DNA of 40,814 bases, from the NCBI GenBank assembly GCA_020629135.1, contig JAHDDX010000017.1, forward strand, positions 1 through 40,814, read 5' to 3'. The position numbers and the translations under genes were made by a program. The notes beneath the pieces were generated by a model. That model searched no databases, was not told where the DNA came from, and worked only from the letters and a program-made list of their open reading frames with translations. How positions within the stretch are numbered: position 1 is the first letter of the stretch; every line of letters begins with the position of its first letter. This DNA comes from Hellea sp. Lineage in GTDB: Bacteria; Pseudomonadota; Alphaproteobacteria; Caulobacterales; Maricaulaceae. This document shows positions 14,784 to 23,598 of this stretch, piece by piece.

Positions 14784-15965
14784 TTATTCGGTACGGGTAA
14801 TCCACCCACCACCCAGAACACGGGCCTGATCTGCATCCTGTTGATAAAAAACACAGGCCTGACCTGGCGAAATACCTTCCTCCGGATCGACGAGTTCGAT
14901 CCAGACAGCCTGATCTTGCCAATGTAAGATCGCAGGTTCCGGCGGACGGGTCGAACGAACTTTAACGCCGATTTTTTTACCCTCAAGATCTGGGCCATAG
15001 GGCGTGTCCCCGATCCAGTTAATATCGGTGAGAAAAATTTTCGAACGCGCTAAAGCTTCGCGAGGCCCAATAATGACCTGCTTGCTGTCCGCATCAATGC
15101 GAACCACATAAAGCGGATCCAAACCGCTCCCATCCTTAAGGCCCAATCCGCGTCTTTGCCCAATTGTGTAATACATAATGCCGCGGTGCTGCCCTAATAC
15201 GCGTCCATCAATATGAACCATATCACCTGGATCAGAGGCGTCAGGACGTAGTTTTTCAATGACATCCGTATATTTACCTGTCGGGACAAAACAGATATCC
15301 TGGCTGTCTGGCTTGGCCGCAACGTTTAAACCCATCTCAACCGCAAGCTTTCGGGTTTCAGATTTGTCCAAATGACCGAGTGGAAAGCGCAGAAAATCAA
15401 GCTGCTCACGAGTCGTCGCGAACAAAAAATAACTTTGATCTTTGCCATAGTCATGCGCCCTATGGAGTTCAGGACCATTGGGCCCTTCTATGCGTTTAAT
15501 ATAATGACCTGTCGCCATACAATCCGCGCCCAGGTCACGAGCCACCTGCAAAAGGTCTTTAAACTTTACGGTCTGATTGCATCTTACGCATGGGATTGGC
15601 GTCGCCCCCTGCAGGTAAGTATCTGCGAAGTCGTCGATCACACTTTCTTTAAATCGACTCTCATAATCCAAAACATAATGAGGAAAATCCATCATTTCGG
15701 CGACCCGGCGGGCGTCATAAATATCCTGTCCGGCGCAACAGGCTTTTTCTTTCTTGATCGCTTCGCCATGATCATAAAGCTGGAGCGTCACACCGATGAC
15801 GTCATAGCCTTCGCGCGCCAACATGGCGGCACATACGGAACTGTCCACGCCGCCAGACATGGCGACGACGACCCGCGTATCGGCAACAGGTTTATTAAAC
15901 CCGAGAGAATTTATATTTTTTTCTGCCAAAGCTAATTTTCCAGTAGTTGATTTTACAAAAACCAA
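14784..15965 (-). CDS. mnmA: tRNA-specific 2-thiouridylase MnmA
   Basis: Thiolates U34 of tRNA-Lys, -Glu and -Gln in the cytoplasm, with sulphur relayed through a Cys persulphide. Motifs: PP-loop SGGVDSS (37-43), the CCAGQD stretch, a first catalytic Cys in [12 protein letters not shown], the GHY motif, and a second Cys in [15 protein letters not shown]-terminal beta-barrel domain follows. The start is unusual: no ATG exists before the PP-loop in this frame. The candidates are TTG at 15965 and TTG at 15929, the latter with GGA about 9 bases upstream; the second would give the shorter N-terminus more typical of the family. It is divergent from sciP. Confidence 0.95.
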
Positions 15966-16165: not shown

Positions 16166-16181
16166 TTAAATTCTTTTTAAC
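16166..16181 (+). promoter_or_regulatory. Perfect CtrA box in the sciP promoter
   Basis: TTAA-ATTCTTT-TTAAC matches the CtrA consensus TTAA-N7-TTAAC at every fixed base. A TATAAA at 16192-16197 is placed so that the box overlaps the -35 region, the arrangement of CtrA-activated promoters in Caulobacter. The ATG of sciP is 51 bases further on. Confidence 0.75.
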
Positions 16182-17470: not shown

Positions 17471-18073
17471 ATGGCCCGCATGACCAATAGTCTGGCTATC
17501 ATATCCGTTTCGGCATTTTTGACGCTAGGCGTAGCCTTTGCTGATCCCGCCGCGGACACCAATCAGGATGGAAAAATCAGTAAGACTGAGTTTATCAACG
17601 CCGCCAATATTCGCTTCATCGAAACCGATATTAATGGTGATAATTTTATCACGAAAGAAGAGCGTAAAGCCCATAAAGAAGGCAAACGAGCAAAACGGGA
17701 AAGCGGACGTTTTGATCGTCTGGACGCTAATAATGACGGTGTGATTACCCGAAACGAATTTGAAGCCCATAGTGCAGACCGCGCTCAAATGCGCGAAGCA
17801 CGACGGGACATCAACCAAGACGGAAACGTCGATCAATTCGACAAAGAGGCCCGCCGCGAAAAAATGCGTGAAATGCGCAAACAGCGTGGGGATCGCCAAA
17901 CAGGCGACCGCCGTCGAATGAACCCTGATGCCGATGGTGACGGTTTCGTCTCTCGCGCCGAACACGATGCTGCAGTTGAAAAAATGTTCGAACGCCTGGA
18001 CGTAAATGGCGATGGATATCTTGAGAAAGGTGAAGGCAAACGCCGACATAAGCGCCGACGGTTCAGACGTTAG
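17471..18073 (+). CDS. Exported protein with six EF-hand loops
   Basis: A 200-residue protein with a signal peptide (1-24, cut after VAFA) and six 12-residue EF-hand loops at about 29-40, 53-64, 85-96, 113-124, 153-164 and 177-188. Five end in the canonical Glu. The fourth (DINQDGNVDQFD) ends in Asp, which usually lowers Ca2+ affinity or shifts it toward Mg2+. Between loops the chain is very rich in Arg and Lys, and it ends in a basic run (KRRHKRRRFRR). AAGGAG lies 7 bases before the ATG. An ECF sigma gene begins 4 bases after its stop, and an anti-sigma gene overlaps that, so this protein may be the periplasmic Ca2+-binding input of that pair. That role is inferred only. Confidence 0.85.
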   Translation: MARMTNSLAIISVSAFLTLGVAFADPAADTNQDGKISKTEFINAANIRFIETDINGDNFITKEERKAHKEGKRAKRESGRFDRLDANNDGVITRNEFEAHSADRAQMREARRDINQDGNVDQFDKEARREKMREMRKQRGDRQTGDRRRMNPDADGDGFVSRAEHDAAVEKMFERLDVNGDGYLEKGEGKRRHKRRRFRR

Positions 18074-18077
18074 ATCC

Positions 18078-18674
18078 ATGAACTTGGTCACTCATAATGC
18101 TGCGTCTGGGCGAGATCCGGACGCAGATTTAATCAAAGCTATCTCGCAAGGTGATAAAACGGCTTTCTCACAACTGATGGATCGGCATTTGTCTCATATT
18201 GTGGCCTTGGCGGCACATATGCTGGGAGACCGCTTTGCGGCCGAAGATGTTGCCCAAACCGTTTTCCTGAAAACGTGGCAAATGATACCTCGCTGGAAAA
18301 CCGGAAATGCCAAATTGATTACATGGATGCGTAAAGTGGCAACAAACCAATGCCTGGATATTTTGCGATCCAAACGCGAAGTATATTCTGACAGTCTCCC
18401 AGATTCCGAGGACCAAAGCCCTTCTGCCATTGATTATCTGGAAATCAGAGATCGATCTTTGCTGGTTCGTGAGGCGATGCAATCCTTACCGGATCGTCAA
18501 AGGGCTGCTATTTCACTTTCATATTTCCAACATGTTTCGCAAAAAGAGGGTTCCGTAATATTGGCAATTTCCGAAAGCGCCTATGAATCGCTTCTGGTTC
18601 GTGCCAGAAAGTCATTGCGCGCTACGTTGTCTCAAAACCCGAACACGTTGTTAGCTACAGGAGTCGGATTATGA
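18078..18674 (+). CDS. RNA polymerase sigma factor, ECF family
   Basis: A 198-residue ECF-type sigma factor with only regions 2 and 4. Region 2 runs about residues 32-105 and includes FAAEDVAQTVFLKTW (core binding and -10 recognition) and WMRKVATNQCLDILRSKR. Region 4 is about 130-185 and includes LPDRQRAAISLSYFQHVSQKEGSV and the recognition helix SESAYESLLVRARKSLR. ATG 18078 is chosen because it lies 4 bases after the EF-hand stop; an open frame runs upstream to 18006 but overlaps that gene. It is co-transcribed with the EF-hand gene and overlaps the anti-sigma gene by 4 bases. Target promoters are unknown. Confidence 0.92.
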   Translation: MNLVTHNAASGRDPDADLIKAISQGDKTAFSQLMDRHLSHIVALAAHMLGDRFAAEDVAQTVFLKTWQMIPRWKTGNAKLITWMRKVATNQCLDILRSKREVYSDSLPDSEDQSPSAIDYLEIRDRSLLVREAMQSLPDRQRAAISLSYFQHVSQKEGSVILAISESAYESLLVRARKSLRATLSQNPNTLLATGVGL

Positions 18675-19123
18675 CTATGCAGGAATTTACGCGTCTGATT
18701 GAAATATACGGTGCAAATCCCGACCGATGGCCATTGGATATCTGCATAGATGCGCAGAAATTCATGGAAACTCATCCCAAAGAGTCCCGAAAGTTGATCG
18801 AGCAGGAGTCCAAATTGGACAAAATACTCGATGAAGCTCATATCCAAGCCGATGTCGAATTATTGCAACGTCGGATTTTAAAGCAAGTTGATGCTTTTCC
18901 TCAAGAACAGCCAATCATCAAAAAGTCACCAGGCTGGATGGCTGTCGCAGCAATGCTCGTCACGGCTTTCACTGTGGGCGTTATTGGTGGACGTTCGTTA
19001 CCGAATACGGTCCCGGCAACTGAGCCCGCATCAGAAGAATTCCTGACTGTTGAATTTGAAACAGCTGCTGATGATCTGGGTCTATCTGATATTTACGCCT
19101 GGGTTGAAGGCGAAGACTTATAA
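18671..19123 (+). CDS. Membrane anti-sigma factor (putative)
   Basis: A 150-residue protein with a cytoplasmic N-terminal half (about 1-86), one membrane helix (about 87-109, GWMAVAAMLVTAFTVGVIGG) and a short acidic periplasmic tail of about 40 residues (EEFLTVEFE to GEDL). The N-terminus has the YGANPDRWP segment and an Ala/Glu-rich helix seen in alphaproteobacterial anti-sigma factors. I see no HxxxCxxC zinc motif, so it is not of the ZAS class. It starts within the sigma gene's stop (ATGA), with AGGAG 8 bases upstream, which gives the stoichiometric coupling usual for sigma/anti-sigma pairs. The acidic periplasmic tail could meet the basic EF-hand protein; that is a guess from charge alone. 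Confidence 0.78.
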   Translation: MTMQEFTRLIEIYGANPDRWPLDICIDAQKFMETHPKESRKLIEQESKLDKILDEAHIQADVELLQRRILKQVDAFPQEQPIIKKSPGWMAVAAMLVTAFTVGVIGGRSLPNTVPATEPASEEFLTVEFETAADDLGLSDIYAWVEGEDL

Positions 19124-19170: not shown

Positions 19171-19542
19171 TTAAGCTTGTTTGCGATAAGCACTTTCAGC
19201 TTTAGACGCGAGACGTCTAGCCCGGACCCGCTCAAAACTATCCAAAGCATCCAGCGCCGTGCGCAATTCACCCGCCAGATCAAGATGCTGGCTCATAATA
19301 TCATCTAAAGACGAACGAAGATTGGTTTTGCGCTTTATCACCGACTGAGCATATGACCCATAAGAGACATAGCCGTCCTTTTGCGCGTCAGCCTCAATTT
19401 CTTCTTCGGGGACACTTTCGACAAGTTTCCTGATTTGACGCTCAAGATCTTCCCGTGTCGCTTCCAATACTGCGATGCGTTTTTGTAAATCTTCGATCGC
19501 AAAACGCGTTTGGCGGATATTCCGCTCCATTGCTTGATTCAT
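19171..19542 (-). CDS. fliJ: FliJ-like flagellar export coiled-coil protein
   Basis: About 123 residues, almost entirely helical with heptad-like hydrophobics: IRQTRFAIEDLQKRIAVLE, then LERQIRKLVES, and a long C-terminal helix. This is as in FliJ, the stalk-like helper of the FliI ATPase in the flagellar type III export apparatus. Sequence identity in FliJ is always low, so the call rests on length, coiled coil and position beside ctrA, where alphaproteobacteria often have fliJ. The ATG at 19542 is preferred because AGGTG lies 6 bases upstream; a GTG at 19551 is also in frame. No fliI is in the window. It is divergent from ctrA and shares its regulatory region. Confidence 0.72.
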   Translation of the reverse strand: MNQAMERNIRQTRFAIEDLQKRIAVLEATREDLERQIRKLVESVPEEEIEADAQKDGYVSYGSYAQSVIKRKTNLRSSLDDIMSQHLDLAGELRTALDALDSFERVRARRLASKAESAYRKQA

Positions 19543-19688
19543 TTGTTTCACCTAAACCCACTTATTATTATGGCTTTTCACCGTTAGGGCACACTAACTG
19601 AACATAATTACGGTCTAGTAAACGTGGACAAATTAATTTCAATTCGTCTCAAATTACGACGAATTTATTAAAAAAACCGATTTTATCG

Positions 19689-19711: not shown

Positions 19712-19782
19712 ACGTAAGCCAAGAATTAAGTTAACCATATTCCTGATAAATAGGGATAGTGATTCGCCTGGGAGGGTCTGAT

Positions 19783-20478
19783 ATGCGCGTTCTTCTAATT
19801 GAAGATGACAGTGCAACTGCGCAAGGCATCGAATTAATGCTGAAAACCGAAGGTTTTAACGTCTATACGACGGATCTCGGGGAAGAAGGCGTCGATTTGG
19901 GCAAATTATACGACTATGACATTATTCTATTGGACCTTAATCTCCCGGACATGCCGGGCTTTGATGTCTTAAAGACCCTCAGAATGGCCAAGATCAATAC
20001 ACCGATCTTCATATTATCAGGTACGTCAGATATTGATTCAAAAGTTCGCGGCCTTGGGACAGGCGCTGATGATTATATGACCAAGCCCTTCCACAAAGAT
20101 GAGCTTATCGCCCGTATTCACGCCGTTGTTCGCCGTTCCAAAGGTCATTCACAATCCGTCATCACGACAGGCGATATTAAAGTGAATCTGGATGCCAAGA
20201 CGGTTGAAGTTGGCGATCACCGCGTCCACTTGACTGGTAAAGAGTACCAAATGCTCGAATTACTGTCCCTTCGGAAGGGAACGACCCTTACAAAGGAAAT
20301 GTTCTTAAATCACCTTTATGGCGGTATGGACGAGCCTGAACTCAAGATTATTGACGTCTTTATCTGTAAGCTTCGCAAAAAATTGGCGTCGGCTACAGGC
20401 GGCGACCACTATATCGAAACTGTTTGGGGACGCGGATATGTCCTTCGCGATCCTTCCAAGGACCGATTAAGCGCCTAA
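19783..20478 (+). CDS. ctrA: Cell-cycle response regulator CtrA
   Basis: OmpR/PhoB-type regulator, 231 residues, the same length as Caulobacter CtrA. It silences the replication origin and controls division, flagellar and pilus genes. The receiver domain (1-120) has the acidic pair Glu7/Asp8/Asp9, phospho-acceptor Asp51 in [11 protein letters not shown], and the TKPF lysine. The winged-helix domain (about 125-225) contains [21 protein letters not shown] and the recognition segment [17 protein letters not shown], near-identical to known CtrA. ATG 19783 has GGGAGGG upstream; a GTG at 19759 is in frame but would add 8 unusual residues. The C-terminus ends in Ser-Ala, while Caulobacter CtrA ends in Ala-Ala, which ClpXP needs. 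Confidence 0.97.
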
Positions 20479-20500: not shown

Positions 20501-21436
20501 TCAACCCCGGTTTACCGGGGTTTTTCTTTGCGGTTCATAAGGGATAGGCGCGACAGTCGGACGGACAATACGATTTTCCGCATCGGCTTGTATTTCGTCT
20601 TCAGTCGCCTTTTTCGGCTTCATAAAGACACCCTTCAGATTTGCCTGTTCTTCAAATCCGTAACTCAGCTTCGGCGTCTCGTCATCTGTGCCTAAGATCA
20701 GACAGCCGCCAGCGACAACAATCGATGATAAACCCCGCATGACCCGGACCTGGGCCGCAGATGAATAATCAGACAATCCATTTCGGAAAATAACCACATG
20801 AAATTGGCCAAGTTCGCCCAGGTTTGAAAGTAAGTGATGTTCTTTAAACGTCACCATATTTCTAAGCTCTTGCTTAACCACCCAGTCTTCGCCGTGGCGG
20901 TCAAAATAGGAAATGAGATCACGGATCGGTAAACCACGCTGAACTTCGAAGTGGGTATATTGACCGCGCCCTGCCCGGTCCAGAGCCGGTGATGGATAAT
21001 CAATGCCTGTGACGTCAAACCTGGTATTTGGATAGATCTGGCGCAGCTTGTTTAATTGAATAGCAAAGGAATATGGCTCTTGGCCGCTGCTGCACCCAAA
21101 CGATAAAATGCGCAAAGTTTCGCCGGGAAAATCACCAAGCAGTTTGGGGTAAATTGTTTCTGCAAATTGCCGAATGGCTAAAGGATCTGGATTAAAATGG
21201 GTATCCCGCTCGAGAAGCGCCGATACGACTTTGATGGCGAGGCGAGATTGGCCTCGACTAAATAGCTCGTCAATCAATGTATTGAGGTCTTCAAAACCTT
21301 CTTTTCGGGCTAATGTCGCCAGACGGGTTTCAATTAAAAATGGGTGATTGGCCCCCAGATTAATGCCAACCAACTCTAATGTCAGGCGTTTGAGCGCTTC
21401 ATAATAGCTTGGGCGCAGGCTAAGGACCCGGCTCAT
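20501..21436 (-). CDS. CheR-like methyltransferase, divergent
   Basis: A 311-residue protein of the CheR family (SAM-dependent methylation of chemoreceptor glutamates). It has an N-terminal helical domain (about 10-75), a SAM-binding motif at about 112-123 (SFGCSSGQEPYS, compared with the usual AGCSTGEEPYS) and a FDVTGIDYPSPAL strand. Two hallmarks are altered. The NETxFFR segment reads LERDTHFNPDP (75-85). The CRNVLIYF motif reads FRNGLSDY (217-224). Activity may be kept or lost. It overlaps the upstream CheY-like gene by 4 bases. The C-terminal 45 residues (KPKKATEDE to the end) are charged and unrelated to CheR. No chemoreceptor is nearby. Confidence 0.85.
   Translation of the reverse strand: MSRVLSLRPSYYEALKRLTLELVGINLGANHPFLIETRLATLARKEGFEDLNTLIDELFSRGQSRLAIKVVSALLERDTHFNPDPLAIRQFAETIYPKLLGDFPGETLRILSFGCSSGQEPYSFAIQLNKLRQIYPNTRFDVTGIDYPSPALDRAGRGQYTHFEVQRGLPIRDLISYFDRHGEDWVVKQELRNMVTFKEHHLLSNLGELGQFHVVIFRNGLSDYSSAAQVRVMRGLSSIVVAGGCLILGTDDETPKLSYGFEEQANLKGVFMKPKKATEDEIQADAENRIVRPTVAPIPYEPQRKTPVNRG
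20503..20527 (+). terminator. ctrA terminator, embedded in the cheR 3' end
   Basis: AACCCCGGT-TT-ACCGGGGTT hairpin followed by TTTC on +, 24 bases after the ctrA stop. The same bases, read on -, encode the last five residues and stop of the CheR-like protein (PVNRG, then TGA). Confidence 0.85.
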
Positions 21437-21801
21437 GACAGTAGTCCGGCCTGAAAAAACTTGCTGCTGATAATGTCGCTGTCAAACGGCTTCATAACAT
21501 ATTCATTGGCGCCGGCTTCAATCGCTTCGACAATTTTGCTCACATCACGCTCAGCCGTGCAAAATACAACAACGGGCTGTTCGCCACCGGGTGTTTGACG
21601 CAATGTCTTTAAAAAGGTCAAACCATCCATAACCGGCATATTCCAATCCAAAAGGATCGCATCTGGCATTCGGCTATAACATTTTTCAATGGCCTGTTGT
21701 CCATTCTCCGCTTCTTGGGACTCGAATTTAAGGTCTTGCAATATACGGCCCGCCACACGACGGATCATTTTTGAGTCATCCACAATCAGACAGGTTTTCA
21801 T
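21433..21801 (-). CDS. CheY-like single-domain response regulator
   Basis: A 122-residue receiver domain with nothing attached. It has the acidic pair Asp8/Asp9, phospho-acceptor Asp52 in LLDWNMPVMDG, switch Thr82 (FCTAE) and Lys104 (MKPFD), so it should be phosphorylatable. An Ala-Gly-Leu-Leu-Ser C-terminus replaces the usual last helix end. It overlaps both neighbours by 4 bases (ATGA), making a tightly coupled CheA-like/CheY/CheR unit. As the CheA-like partner appears to lack kinase motifs, phosphate probably comes from another kinase or from ChpT, which is encoded next door; that route is inferred. Confidence 0.92.
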   Translation of the reverse strand: MKTCLIVDDSKMIRRVAGRILQDLKFESQEAENGQQAIEKCYSRMPDAILLDWNMPVMDGLTFLKTLRQTPGGEQPVVVFCTAERDVSKIVEAIEAGANEYVMKPFDSDIISSKFFQAGLLS

Positions 21802-22739
21802 GCGGTTTCCTTCCGCTGATCGATAGTCTCAGTTAAATCAGGTCTAACTTTACCAGAGCCAGCAACACGTAGGGGCAAATCCGCAAGCGCTATGCTGACT
21901 GATTGTTTTTCGTTACTTAATCCGGTTTTCATCCCCATACCCACCAGTTGGACGACCGCATGCGAAGCAAACAACATTTTTGACGGGGATTTGCCCGTTG
22001 TCGTCACTAAGACATGAAAGACATCGCCTTCGACCTGCGCGGTAAACGAAATATGTGCGGATCGGCTTCTGCCTTTTTGACGCCGAATTTCTGGGGTTTC
22101 GATACTGTTCGAGACCAGATGATTGCCGATTTCAGCCATCGCGCGCACGACGACTTTTAAATATTCTTGGCTGAGCGCAATCGCTCCCGCAGATAAAGAC
22201 ACACTCACCGTCTTGTCTTGCTGGCGCGCAGTCCTCAAAATTTCATCCGTAATGAGCGGCATCTCTCCTTCTAGGGGTAATAAGTTTTGTTTTGAGGTGT
22301 CGGTCTTTGGCACCTTAAAATTCGTCAATGCCTGAAGGGCGTTTCGTTCAGCGCCAGGCCTGGCTAGATCCATTACGGATCGCAGGGTCGCGGCAGCAAT
22401 TTCAAAAGCCGCCCTTTCATCTGGAACGGATAAAGGTTCGACCCGGGTCATTAGTTCATTTTCAACTTGTTCCAAGCCAGATTTGTATTGAGACACCAGT
22501 TTATTCAATGCCAACAGGTTACCACCACGTTGTGCTGCGGGGCGCTCAAAGCGAAAATCATCGCTGACCAAACGGGTGACACGACCGATAGCGCGCGCCT
22601 GCATTTGGGAAGCTTTCTCATCAATTTGGTCCAGGGCGCGGATCGCGTCGTCACCGTCAAGCTTGCCATCAATCAAGGCAGCAACACTTTCATCACACAG
22701 ATCAACAAAGGCACGTGCGGCAATTAAATCGTCACCCAT
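21798..22739 (-). CDS. CheA-like protein with degenerate kinase domain (pseudokinase candidate)
   Basis: A 313-residue protein. Residues about 160-290 align by eye with the ATPase part of CheA: PLITDEILRTARQQDKTV, then HLVSNSIETPEIRRQKGR (about 207-224), where CheA has a HLxRNxxDHGIExPExR motif. The Asn (211) is kept but DHG is missing. The next block reads VLVTTTGKSPSK where CheA has DDGxGID, so the ATP-lid Gly/Asp motif is gone. The N-terminal 100 residues are helical, and I see no His in a phosphotransfer motif. It therefore looks like a CheA relative that cannot act as a kinase. It is the first gene of the CheY/CheR operon, with AGAGGA before the ATG. Confidence 0.7.
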   Translation of the reverse strand: MGDDLIAARAFVDLCDESVAALIDGKLDGDDAIRALDQIDEKASQMQARAIGRVTRLVSDDFRFERPAAQRGGNLLALNKLVSQYKSGLEQVENELMTRVEPLSVPDERAAFEIAAATLRSVMDLARPGAERNALQALTNFKVPKTDTSKQNLLPLEGEMPLITDEILRTARQQDKTVSVSLSAGAIALSQEYLKVVVRAMAEIGNHLVSNSIETPEIRRQKGRSRSAHISFTAQVEGDVFHVLVTTTGKSPSKMLFASHAVVQLVGMGMKTGLSNEKQSVSIALADLPLRVAGSGKVRPDLTETIDQRKETA

Positions 22740-22768
22740 AATGTCCTCTGTTTCGCCTAAATTTCCAC

Positions 22769-22829
22769 GAATCGCCTTGCAATCCGCCCTACGGGAAATC
22801 CTGACGGTAAAACGTTAAAAGGACCTAAA
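22769..22829 (-). promoter_or_regulatory. CtrA-box-like site plus GANTC upstream of the CheA-like operon
   Basis: On the - strand TTTA-GGTCCTT-TTAAC (+ 22814-22829) is one base from TTAA-N7-TTAAC. A GATTC (GANTC, 22769-22773) lies between it and the start codon at 22739. Confidence 0.5.
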
Positions 22830-22864
22830 ATTTGGGGTAAAAAACGCCTTAAATTTCTGAATGA

Positions 22865-23536
22865 CTAAGCGGCATCCTGAGCTTTATCTTTGGGAAGAAA
22901 AACGGAAAAGGTAACCGTGTCTTCGTCAACATTCGTATCAATCCGACCTTTAAGTTCGCGGACCATCATGCCCGCGTAAAAAGGCTGTATAGAGCGGCCA
23001 TCAAAGCCGTCTTCAGGGGCCTTGCCTGACAGCGTCCGAGTTACCATAGGGTCTAGCTTGGCTTTTTGACCATTTGCCTTAACTTCGATGAGTTCCGCAT
23101 CACCTGTCCGGGTAATGCTAGCGGTTACAGTCCCACCACGCGGAATAGAATAACAGCTAATCATTATCAGGTTGAGCAAAAGCCGCGCAGGTGTTTTATC
23201 CAATCCCTCGACCAATGTGTCCCATTTGACTGAAACTTTACCCTCCGCATACATACCGCCAGCCAAAGTTCGGAGCTGATCAAGACCAATAAACCCGGGG
23301 GCAGACGTGCCGGCCCCAAAAGCCAGCCTTAAAAACTGCAATTTCGCCGAGGCTTGTTTGGCTGATAATCGCACTAGATCCATGGCGTCAGGATGCATAT
23401 CGGCGTTATCCGGATCGTCCAAAACCTCTATTGCGGTTCCGAGGGCCCCTATGGGCGAAATCAAATCATGACAAATACGCGCGCACATAAGTGCGGAAAG
23501 ATCGCCGGGCGTTAGTTTTTGAGGATTTTCAGACAT
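22865..23536 (-). CDS. chpT: Histidine phosphotransferase ChpT
   Basis: About 223 residues. ChpT shuttles phosphate from the hybrid kinase CckA to CtrA and CpdR. It resembles a histidine kinase core without ATPase activity: the dimerisation helix carries ALMCARICHDLISPIGAL with phospho-accepting His23, followed by a degenerate ATPase-like domain (about 100-215; LLLNLIMISCYSIPRGG, where kinases have the N-box) and a short acidic C-terminal segment. ATG 23536 is taken; a GTG 12 bases upstream (23548) is in frame, and neither has a clear ribosome site. A GAATC and a CtrA-box-like site lie upstream. It follows the CheA-like operon's promoter on the same strand but is separate from it. Confidence 0.93.
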   Translation of the reverse strand: MSENPQKLTPGDLSALMCARICHDLISPIGALGTAIEVLDDPDNADMHPDAMDLVRLSAKQASAKLQFLRLAFGAGTSAPGFIGLDQLRTLAGGMYAEGKVSVKWDTLVEGLDKTPARLLLNLIMISCYSIPRGGTVTASITRTGDAELIEVKANGQKAKLDPMVTRTLSGKAPEDGFDGRSIQPFYAGMMVRELKGRIDTNVDEDTVTFSVFLPKDKAQDAA

Positions 23537-23553
23537 AGGAACTCGCACTTATA

Positions 23554-23598
23554 GAATCACTTGGACATGCTTGATCAGAACCCTAAACGATAAATTAA
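23554..23598 (-). promoter_or_regulatory. CtrA-box-like site and GANTC upstream of chpT
   Basis: GANTC (GAATC on +, 23554-23558) and, read on -, TTAA-TTTATCG-TTTA (+ 23584-23598), one base from TTAA-N7-TTAA. Both sit 18-62 bases before the chpT start. Confidence 0.42.

Follow-up and report, generated by a model that had tools for sequence, protein, structure and literature searches.

A reduced chemotaxis operon with a degenerate CheA beside chpT in Hellea and its relatives

The chpT-linked operon and gene X

Chemotaxis is the usual explanation for the proteins CheY and CheR. In a contig of Hellea sp. (GenBank JAHDDX010000017.1, assembly GCA_020629135.1; the whole stretch of 40,814 nucleotides is called the window below), cheY and a cheR-like gene share an operon with chpT and with a gene, here called X, whose product resembles a degenerate CheA. 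The order on the minus strand is chpT > X > cheY > cheR, followed by the convergent ctrA and a fliJ-like gene (Table 1). We read X-cheY-cheR as a chemotaxis operon that was reduced and then retained for some purpose other than classical chemotaxis, and give this reading a probability of roughly 0.55.

Both junctions within X-cheY-cheR are 4-base ATGA overlaps (X/cheY at 21798-21801, cheY/cheR at 21433-21436). A first-pass annotation of the window had described such a coupled three-gene set, and both overlaps are indeed present; the range that it gave, 21433-23598, spans chpT, X and cheY, and cheR falls outside it. Among relatives, the X-cheY overlap is found in 42 of 50 loci as called. These sequence facts of the locus are solid.

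Table 1. Positions of the genes, protein domains and candidate regulatory sites at the locus
Feature	Position	Strand	Remarks
chpT	22865-23548	-	227 residues; GTG start; histidine phosphotransferase
CtrA-type box TTTAGGTCCTTTTAAC	22814-22829	-	in the chpT-X gap
GANTC (CcrM-type) site	22769-22773	-	weakly supported
X, pseudo-CheA	21798-22739	-	313 residues
X residues 2-99, Hpt/P1-like four-helix bundle	22443-22736	-	no conserved His; AlphaFold pLDDT 93.1
X residues 153-289, CheA-P4-like GHKL fold	21873-22283	-	without DHG, DDGxG, GVGM
cheY	21433-21801	-	122 residues; single-domain receiver
cheR-like	20501-21436	-	311 residues; probably a pseudo-methyltransferase
ctrA	19759-20478	+	convergent with cheR; NF045991, 426.8 bits
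FliJ-like coiled-coil gene	19171-19551	-	remnant of the ancestral fliI-fliJ pair

X has no Pfam match above threshold, including PF10090 (ChpT/HPTransfase) and PF01584 (the CheW-like P5 domain of CheA); PF01584 is also without a match in the window's genome, an assembly that is 85% complete. NCBIfam gives a weak CheA_Halo match (residues 170-248, E 5.7e-5), and in hhalign the N-box region of X aligns with CheA (a single pair, probability 84.8, E 6.5e-6). The protein carries HLVSNSIETPEIRR and PLITDEILRTARQ and lacks DHG and the DDGxG lid, as the first-pass annotation had stated. Among 51 X proteins, the N-box Asn is present in eight, the window's included, and DHG, G1, G2, the DDGxG lid and GVGM are gone. 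That annotation had also seen no phosphotransfer His, and this too extends to the relatives: no His column is conserved among the 51 proteins, and His reaches at least 20% at two columns only, 18 (11/51) and 229 (31/51), the latter in the P4-like part. For comparison, 25/25 chpT-linked CheAs have all four of P1 His, N-box Asn, DHG and GVGM. X thus lacks a conserved P1 His and most of the GHKL ATP-site motifs, and it occupies the orthologous position in the series chpT-cheA-cheY. Searched by sequence against PDB chains, X returned a de novo TIM barrel (E 5.5e-7) and a coiled coil (E 0.51), which we took as compositional chance.

The AlphaFold model of whole X, built from 48 sequences, has a mean predicted local distance difference test score (pLDDT) of 88.3 and consists of the four-helix bundle, a helical hairpin and the GHKL-type domain delimited in Table 1. 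In Foldseek the top 30 PDB matches of this model are all CheA or chemotaxis core-unit structures (best E 7.6e-9), and its P4 fold is closest to 4xiv and 1i59 (E ~1e-8). For the N-terminal domain, histidine phosphotransfer (Hpt) or CheA-P1 structures make up eight of the ten best matches; structures of this kind have template modelling scores of ~0.5-0.75 relative to the query. The structure prediction proposed in the first-pass annotation therefore gave a CheA-P4 fold with the ATP motifs mostly gone; an intact ATP site or an Hpt His, which had been named there as counter-evidence, is not what the eroded motifs and variable His columns present. Taken together, X almost certainly descends from CheA, as judged by sequence, and on the predicted model it is a structurally dead CheA, with CheA-like folds kept and the chemistry motifs lost.

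Descent of the locus and conservation of its parts

Searched against 241 genomes of the class, the X profile matches true CheAs, in frames of mostly ~650-1200 residues. Of the 143 genomes other than the window's that have ChpT among the matches listed, 62 carry such a match no more than 6 kb from chpT. A further 40 chpT regions, chosen for having no such CheA match nearby, held CheA in 11 cases, cheY and cheR only in four, cheY only in two, cheR only in two and no che gene in 21. In other alphaproteobacteria there are loci with cheR and no cheY beside chpT (L218, L220) and with cheY and no cheR (L213, L223), so the two genes are not always kept together.

In a set of 40 chosen loci, the ancestral order is chpT > cheA > cheW > cheY > cheB > cheR facing ctrA, then fliI > fliJ (for example L113, L114 and L117, and in the window's own family L081-L085, L087 and L090); most of this order is missing from a few of the 40 (L089, L109, L110, L112). 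The full operon is present in sister genera of the window's family (L081-L088, L090). Comparison of the window with this order thus indicates that cheW, cheB and fliI left the locus and that CheA became X. A second reduced form, chpT > cheY > cheR with no CheA, is found in genomes of the Caulobacteraceae type and in some others; G211 and G301, which belong to another family and have no FliM match, also hold it (L104, L105).

A contig search with a CheR alignment yielded 79 named loci. The first 50, with CheR at least 43% identical, all have X-cheY-cheR; as the 79 loci were picked by CheR similarity, 50 of 79 does not measure how common X is. X runs into the contig end in L136 and L143. The hosts are Hellea, Robiginitomaculum, Litorimonas, Algimonas and further Caulobacterales/Alphaproteobacteria, a stalked marine lineage. 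The neighbourhood conservation for which the first-pass annotation had suggested a search is therefore borne out, with X-cheY-cheR in 50/50 clade loci, chpT present on 47 of the 50 and within ~260 bp of X in 46 of those. On a ChpT tree of 48 X loci (window included), 22 full and 13 minimal loci, with L136, L143 and L144 (no chpT) left out, the X loci form one clade (48/48, support 0.94). A ChpT+CheY tree gives the same clade and appears to place the CheA-less cheY-cheR form at several separate positions. No relative was found among viral contigs (P0001). Going by these trees, the reduction (loss of cheW and cheB, conversion of CheA to X, decay of the CheR active site) is an event that happened once, in the Hellea/Robiginitomaculum/Litorimonas/Algimonas clade.

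Residue counts cover 24 full, 50 X and 19 minimal (CheA-less) loci; L089, L105, L109, L110, L112, L115, L116, L171, L173, L174, L177, L178, L180, L182, L183, L191 and L195-L197 were omitted, being divergent or incomplete, lacking a chpT match, or just not selected. The residue roles assigned to CheY and CheR positions are assumed. The cheY product matches PF00072 (E 5.4e-29) and in the window has D8, D9, D52, T82, Y101 and K104, all the phosphorylation residues with which it had first been credited. The equivalents of Asp12, Asp57, Lys109 and Tyr106 are present in 50/50 clade members and in 24/24 full operons; among CheA-less loci, 19/19 have the first three and 17/19 have Tyr106. In the clade, the T87 equivalent is kept in 49/50 and the Asp13 equivalent in 38/50, the window having Asp. 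By its residues, then, the chemistry of CheY is intact across the clade.

The CheR-like protein matches PF01739 (103.5 bits, E 1.3e-29), and its hallmarks are altered, as had been suspected. Arg98 (Salmonella numbering), which we take to be a residue of the S-adenosylmethionine site, is replaced by Pro in the window; its equivalent is found in 6/50 clade members, 24/24 full operons and 18/19 CheA-less loci. The Asn of the CRN motif is present in 24/24 full operons, 16/19 CheA-less loci and 21/50 clade members. As for a substrate, the window's genome (85% complete) has no match to PF00015, the family of methyl-accepting chemotaxis proteins (MCPs). The protein is probably a pseudo-methyltransferase.

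Mean pairwise identity within the clade is 0.69 for CheY, 0.52 for CheR and 0.26 for X. Median ratios of nonsynonymous to synonymous substitution rates (dN/dS), taken from pairs with dS <2.5 only (6 to 11 of 20 pairs per gene), are 0.057 for CheY (8 pairs), 0.063 for ChpT (11), 0.100 for CheR (6) and 0.175 for X (10). All four genes are thus below 1 and constrained, X least, and these estimates make a strong case for retention under purifying selection.

The gap between chpT and X contains a CtrA-type box, as the first-pass annotation had proposed, and it is conserved in relatives far beyond chance. With the consensus TTAA-N7-TTAA set in advance, and 44 of the 50 X loci usable (given length limits and missing chpT), a match with at most one mismatch occurs in 44/44 gaps, compared with 7.0 expected from shuffles. 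A fitted pattern, TT[T/A/G][A/G]-N7-TTAAC, derived from the same sites that it scores, is found in 44 of 45 gaps (45 of the 50 loci) and in 39 of 1760 like-sized random windows. Base counts show strong half-sites, an A/T-rich run directly after the box and a weaker GGCA block ~10 bases on; a sigma54-like reading of the GGCAC block was dropped, as there is no conserved GC at the -12 position. A looser pattern matches 5/22 full loci (control 4/1100) and 4/18 CheA-less loci (control 4/900). The GANTC site, also proposed earlier, is present in the window, and its enrichment in relatives is weak (26 of 44 intergenic regions, with 17.1 expected). A CtrA site is quoted as TAA-N7-TTAA in the available text of PMC9430884. 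The box fits a CtrA-controlled promoter, and the link to CtrA that it provides is suggestive. Elsewhere in the window, the sole exact TTAA-N7-TTAA lies at 16166-16181 (+), between genes starting at 15965 (-) and 16684 (+); 0.86 would be expected by chance.

Among the neighbours, ChpT matches NF046025 (226.9 bits, above its cut-off) and PF10090 (E 2.8e-27). Its phosphorylatable His motif, CHDLISP in the window, is CHD-type by pattern in 45/47 clade members and AHDLISP in the remaining two, with His-Asp in 47/47. Within the DNA examined, ctrA lies downstream of cheR in 11 of the 50 named clade loci, and this linkage is ancestral. The FliJ-like protein is 42-49% identical to the fliI-adjacent FliJ of eight loci (L081-L087, L090) that have the full operon and come from the same family. 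Its gene persists beside ctrA in the clade, with 57-70% identity across 11 named loci, even though fliI is gone from the locus and neither FlhA nor FliM is matched in the window's genus. Further along, at 17471-19123 (+), genes that read as an EF-hand-like protein, an extracytoplasmic function-like sigma factor and a small membrane protein stand in series; they are possibly a calcium-linked sigma/anti-sigma set.

Remaining machinery and candidate functions

The rest of the chemotaxis and flagellar machinery was counted in 43 family genomes in which the state of the chpT locus had been established by reading it or by co-location, several being assigned by match coordinates alone. Of these, 22 have X, 18 bear a CheA (17 beside chpT, plus G006 with CheA elsewhere) and three have chpT-cheY-cheR; several X assemblies are incomplete. 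In that order, MCP and CheW (PF01584) are each matched in 1/22, 18/18 and 0/3 genomes, FliM (PF02154) in 0/22, 18/18 and 3/3, CheB in 5/22, 18/18 and 0/3, and FlhA in 10/22, 18/18 and 3/3. The absence of CheW, CheB and a receptor, first reported for the locus, holds there and in the window's genome, where no CheW, CheB, MCP, FliM or FlhA match was found (85% complete); FliM and FlhA are without a match in 4/4 genomes of the genus.

Since the CheW-type domains of CheA are detectable, the lack of a PF01584 match means that no full-length CheA is seen in 21 of the 22 X genomes, and a phosphorylatable CheY must therefore have another donor there, in agreement with the first-pass suggestion that CheY is served by something other than CheA. 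The sole MCP and CheW exception is G025, which has a separate cluster near 245073-250563 of contig C3, unique among the 22, with a 771-residue CheA, CheW, CheB and an MCP. Four of the five CheB matches in X genomes (G005, G016, G020, G058) are domains of frames of 1376-1467 residues, which are probably CheB/CheR-kinase fusions; these four genomes gave no further CheB match. The ten X-genome FlhAs score 691-756 bits (vs 845-868), and in G384 (L200, C1:1004000-1023900) FlhA is clustered with FlbT, FlaF, DUF1217, flagellin and MotA; that locus has no PF02154 FliM and encodes a 316-residue protein with a weak FliMN_C match. With FlhA in 10/22 X genomes, we rejected 'flagellum-less clade' as a blanket label. 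In a wider draw from the order, PF02154 is matched in 94 of 150 genomes, so its absence extends beyond the X clade. Convergent flagellar loss accompanied by loss of chemotaxis genes has been described in Caulobacteraceae, with the X clade unmentioned in the text examined (PMC12700997).

These counts explain why the persistence of the set is of interest. A phosphorylatable CheY, a dead CheA and a decayed CheR persist where receptors, CheW and another CheA are not found (21/22 genomes; FliM, 22/22). Because the set persists in the window's genome, where neither a chemoreceptor gene nor a flagellar motor gene was found, the pattern suggests that it has been repurposed, possibly for cell-cycle control, and the module would be a retained one, probably CtrA-controlled, with no chemotaxis pathway evident around it. 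A more specific proposal, which we offer tentatively, is that a chemotaxis operon became a cell-cycle regulator, in which pseudo-CheA, ChpT-charged CheY and pseudo-CheR would together be induced by CtrA and feed back on the CckA-ChpT-CtrA relay as one arm, and the Caulobacter genes CC3471/CC3472 (cheY/cheR) would be the same arm minus the pseudokinase. For the preferred reading of a reduced and retained operon, the steps in falling order of confidence are that CtrA would control expression of the operon; that CheY would be phosphorylated by a non-CheA donor, most simply the adjacent-encoded ChpT, or alternatively a different histidine kinase or some small phosphodonor; that X and CheR may serve as CheY- or ChpT-binding partners; and that the output would be protein-protein feedback on the relay, not an effect on canonical FliM. 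The input to the CtrA network envisaged in the first-pass annotation is thus upheld in part, by the conserved CtrA-type box and the adjacency of chpT; ChpT as the phosphodonor, the scaffold or decoy role suggested there for X, and action on CtrA itself are not among the supported parts. If the more specific proposal is correct, a feedback arm operates in bacteria without chemoreceptors and, in the window's genus, without a flagellum.

A number of observations weigh against repurposing or against parts of the proposal. All X clade members share one ancestor, so the MCP/FliM contrast counts as one event (n=1), not 22. Ten of the 22 X genomes carry the FlhA of a different, Fla1-like flagellum, and in those CheY could serve a motor with a FliM-like protein too divergent for PF02154. 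Retention of che genes beside chpT is not a rule, given the 21 of 40 further regions without any, and in L156 chpT and X are 3.2 kb apart. The exact TTAA-N7-TTAA is found in 0/44 clade gaps, the left half-site being degenerate. In CheY, D13 is replaced by Asn in 8/50, same-genus relatives included, and the clade-fixed differences are few, mostly conservative and give no pointer to ChpT. For the N-terminal domain of X, Foldseek E-values are all at least 0.14, with unrelated helical bundles lower in the list, and its Hpt-like reading is purely structural because hhalign gave no sequence match to CheA P1. Most dS values are above 1, so the dN/dS figures are rough. Finally, a Caulobacter strain without all 12 cheY genes, CC3471 included, lived and swam (PMC7534056, in the part available), so an essential cell-cycle role of CC3471 in Caulobacter is unlikely.

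Other explanations were considered. The genes might be a vestige, decaying remains of a chemotaxis operon now lost that no longer do anything. Set against the ancestral operon, the changes in X and CheR and the losses of cheW and cheB are clear decay, X evolves fast, and other lineages lost every che gene beside chpT; however, the genes are open, ordered and mostly overlapping in all 50 named loci (apart from the two in which X is cut by the contig end), dN/dS is well below 1 for the four genes, though dS is near saturation, and the CheY phosphosite and the upstream box are conserved, which makes a vestige improbable. Alternatively, CheY may still act on a flagellum, Fla1-like in some members, after being charged by a non-CheA kinase. 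The ten FlhA-bearing genomes and the flagellar cluster of G384 fit this idea, and a divergent FliM-like target is possible where PF02154 has no match, as in the window's genome and the 22 X genomes; but the set is also kept in nine genomes more than 90% complete that have no FlhA or FliM match (G051, G032, G019, G055, G037, G058, G012, G028 and G005) and likewise in the window's (85% complete), and we consider motor control unlikely.

A further possibility, rather doubtful in our view, is that CheY drains phosphate from, or acts as a partner switch of, some kinase that has nothing to do with CtrA (serving, for example, the control of pili, holdfast or exopolysaccharide), with the chpT neighbourhood merely ancestral. 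Adjacency to chpT is indeed ancestral and by itself no proof of a functional link, and the single-domain receivers of C. crescentus alone number 20 and differ in what they do (PMC5964349, in the part available). Against this, chpT adjacency (46/47) and the CtrA-type box were retained though cheW and cheB left and ctrA adjoins in only 11/50 loci. X itself could also be an active phosphotransferase or kinase, a ChpT paralogue or Spo0B-type protein, given a helical bundle and GHKL-like domain that are superficially ChpT-like; without a PF10090 match, a conserved His, DHG, DDGxG or GVGM, with the N-box Asn in so few members and with CheA P4 as the closest fold, this is very improbable indeed. Under the preferred reading of a reduced operon kept for another job, the clade is a natural experiment in which the role of chpT-linked CheY and CheR is separated from motility, and it shows the conversion of a histidine kinase to a pseudokinase within a single bacterial family, in which both the intact and the collapsed form occupy this locus.

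Comparison with known systems

A literature search, which covered few subscription papers, found no published description of X or of the function of chpT-linked CheY/CheR. The closest relative of X is the CheA of the chpT-linked che operon, with the same position relative to chpT and cheY and the same P4-type fold. X differs from it in length (313 residues vs about 900) and in having no conserved P1 His, DHG, G1, G2, lid or CheW-like P5. In Rhodospirillum rubrum, genes of the CtrA relay associate with flagellar genes, and chemotaxis genes are in the same clusters (PMC12363192, in the text seen).

Two proteins of the CtrA network offer partial parallels, both taken from the available text of PMC9430884. 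Osp, a single-domain receiver of Rhodobacter sphaeroides, inhibits CckA and is activated by CtrA, and so sets a precedent for a CheY-like protein feeding into the CckA/ChpT/CtrA relay. Like the window's CheY, it is a single-domain receiver tied to that relay with a CtrA box upstream. Unlike Osp, which has neither the Mg-binding acidic pair nor the Lys and is monocistronic, non-phosphorylatable and unlinked, the CheY of the window keeps the acidic pair and Lys and shares its operon with X and CheR. It is thus not an Osp, nor, with its Mg-binding acids present, a CckA inhibitor of the Osp type. DivL, a pseudo-histidine kinase, resembles X in concept only, as a non-canonical kinase-derived protein acting with a receiver; it belongs to a different family.

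The arrangement most similar to that of the window is chpT-cheY-cheR of Caulobacter and Phenylobacterium, which likewise has no cheA, cheW or cheB at the locus. The available part of PMC2529317 (Table 7) lists the Phenylobacterium orthologues of CC3471/CC3472 as PHZ_c0297/PHZ_c0298. Caulobacter chpT is CCNA_03584 (PMC7200025, table) and its cheY, a target of RtrC, is CCNA_03585 (PMC9648850), so that the two are consecutive by tag number in the entries seen. The text examined of PMC7534056 and PMC9648850 gives no separate function for the CC3471/CC3472 pair. Loci from metagenome-assembled genomes of Caulobacter (L187) and Phenylobacterium (L181) have the same chpT-linked cheY+cheR form. These loci differ from the window in having no X and in keeping the CheR Arg98 (18/19 of the CheA-less group), and Caulobacter also differs in having flagella and further che genes. 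With the X clade for comparison, the unexplained chpT-cheY-cheR arrangement of Caulobacter, a model organism, becomes directly testable.

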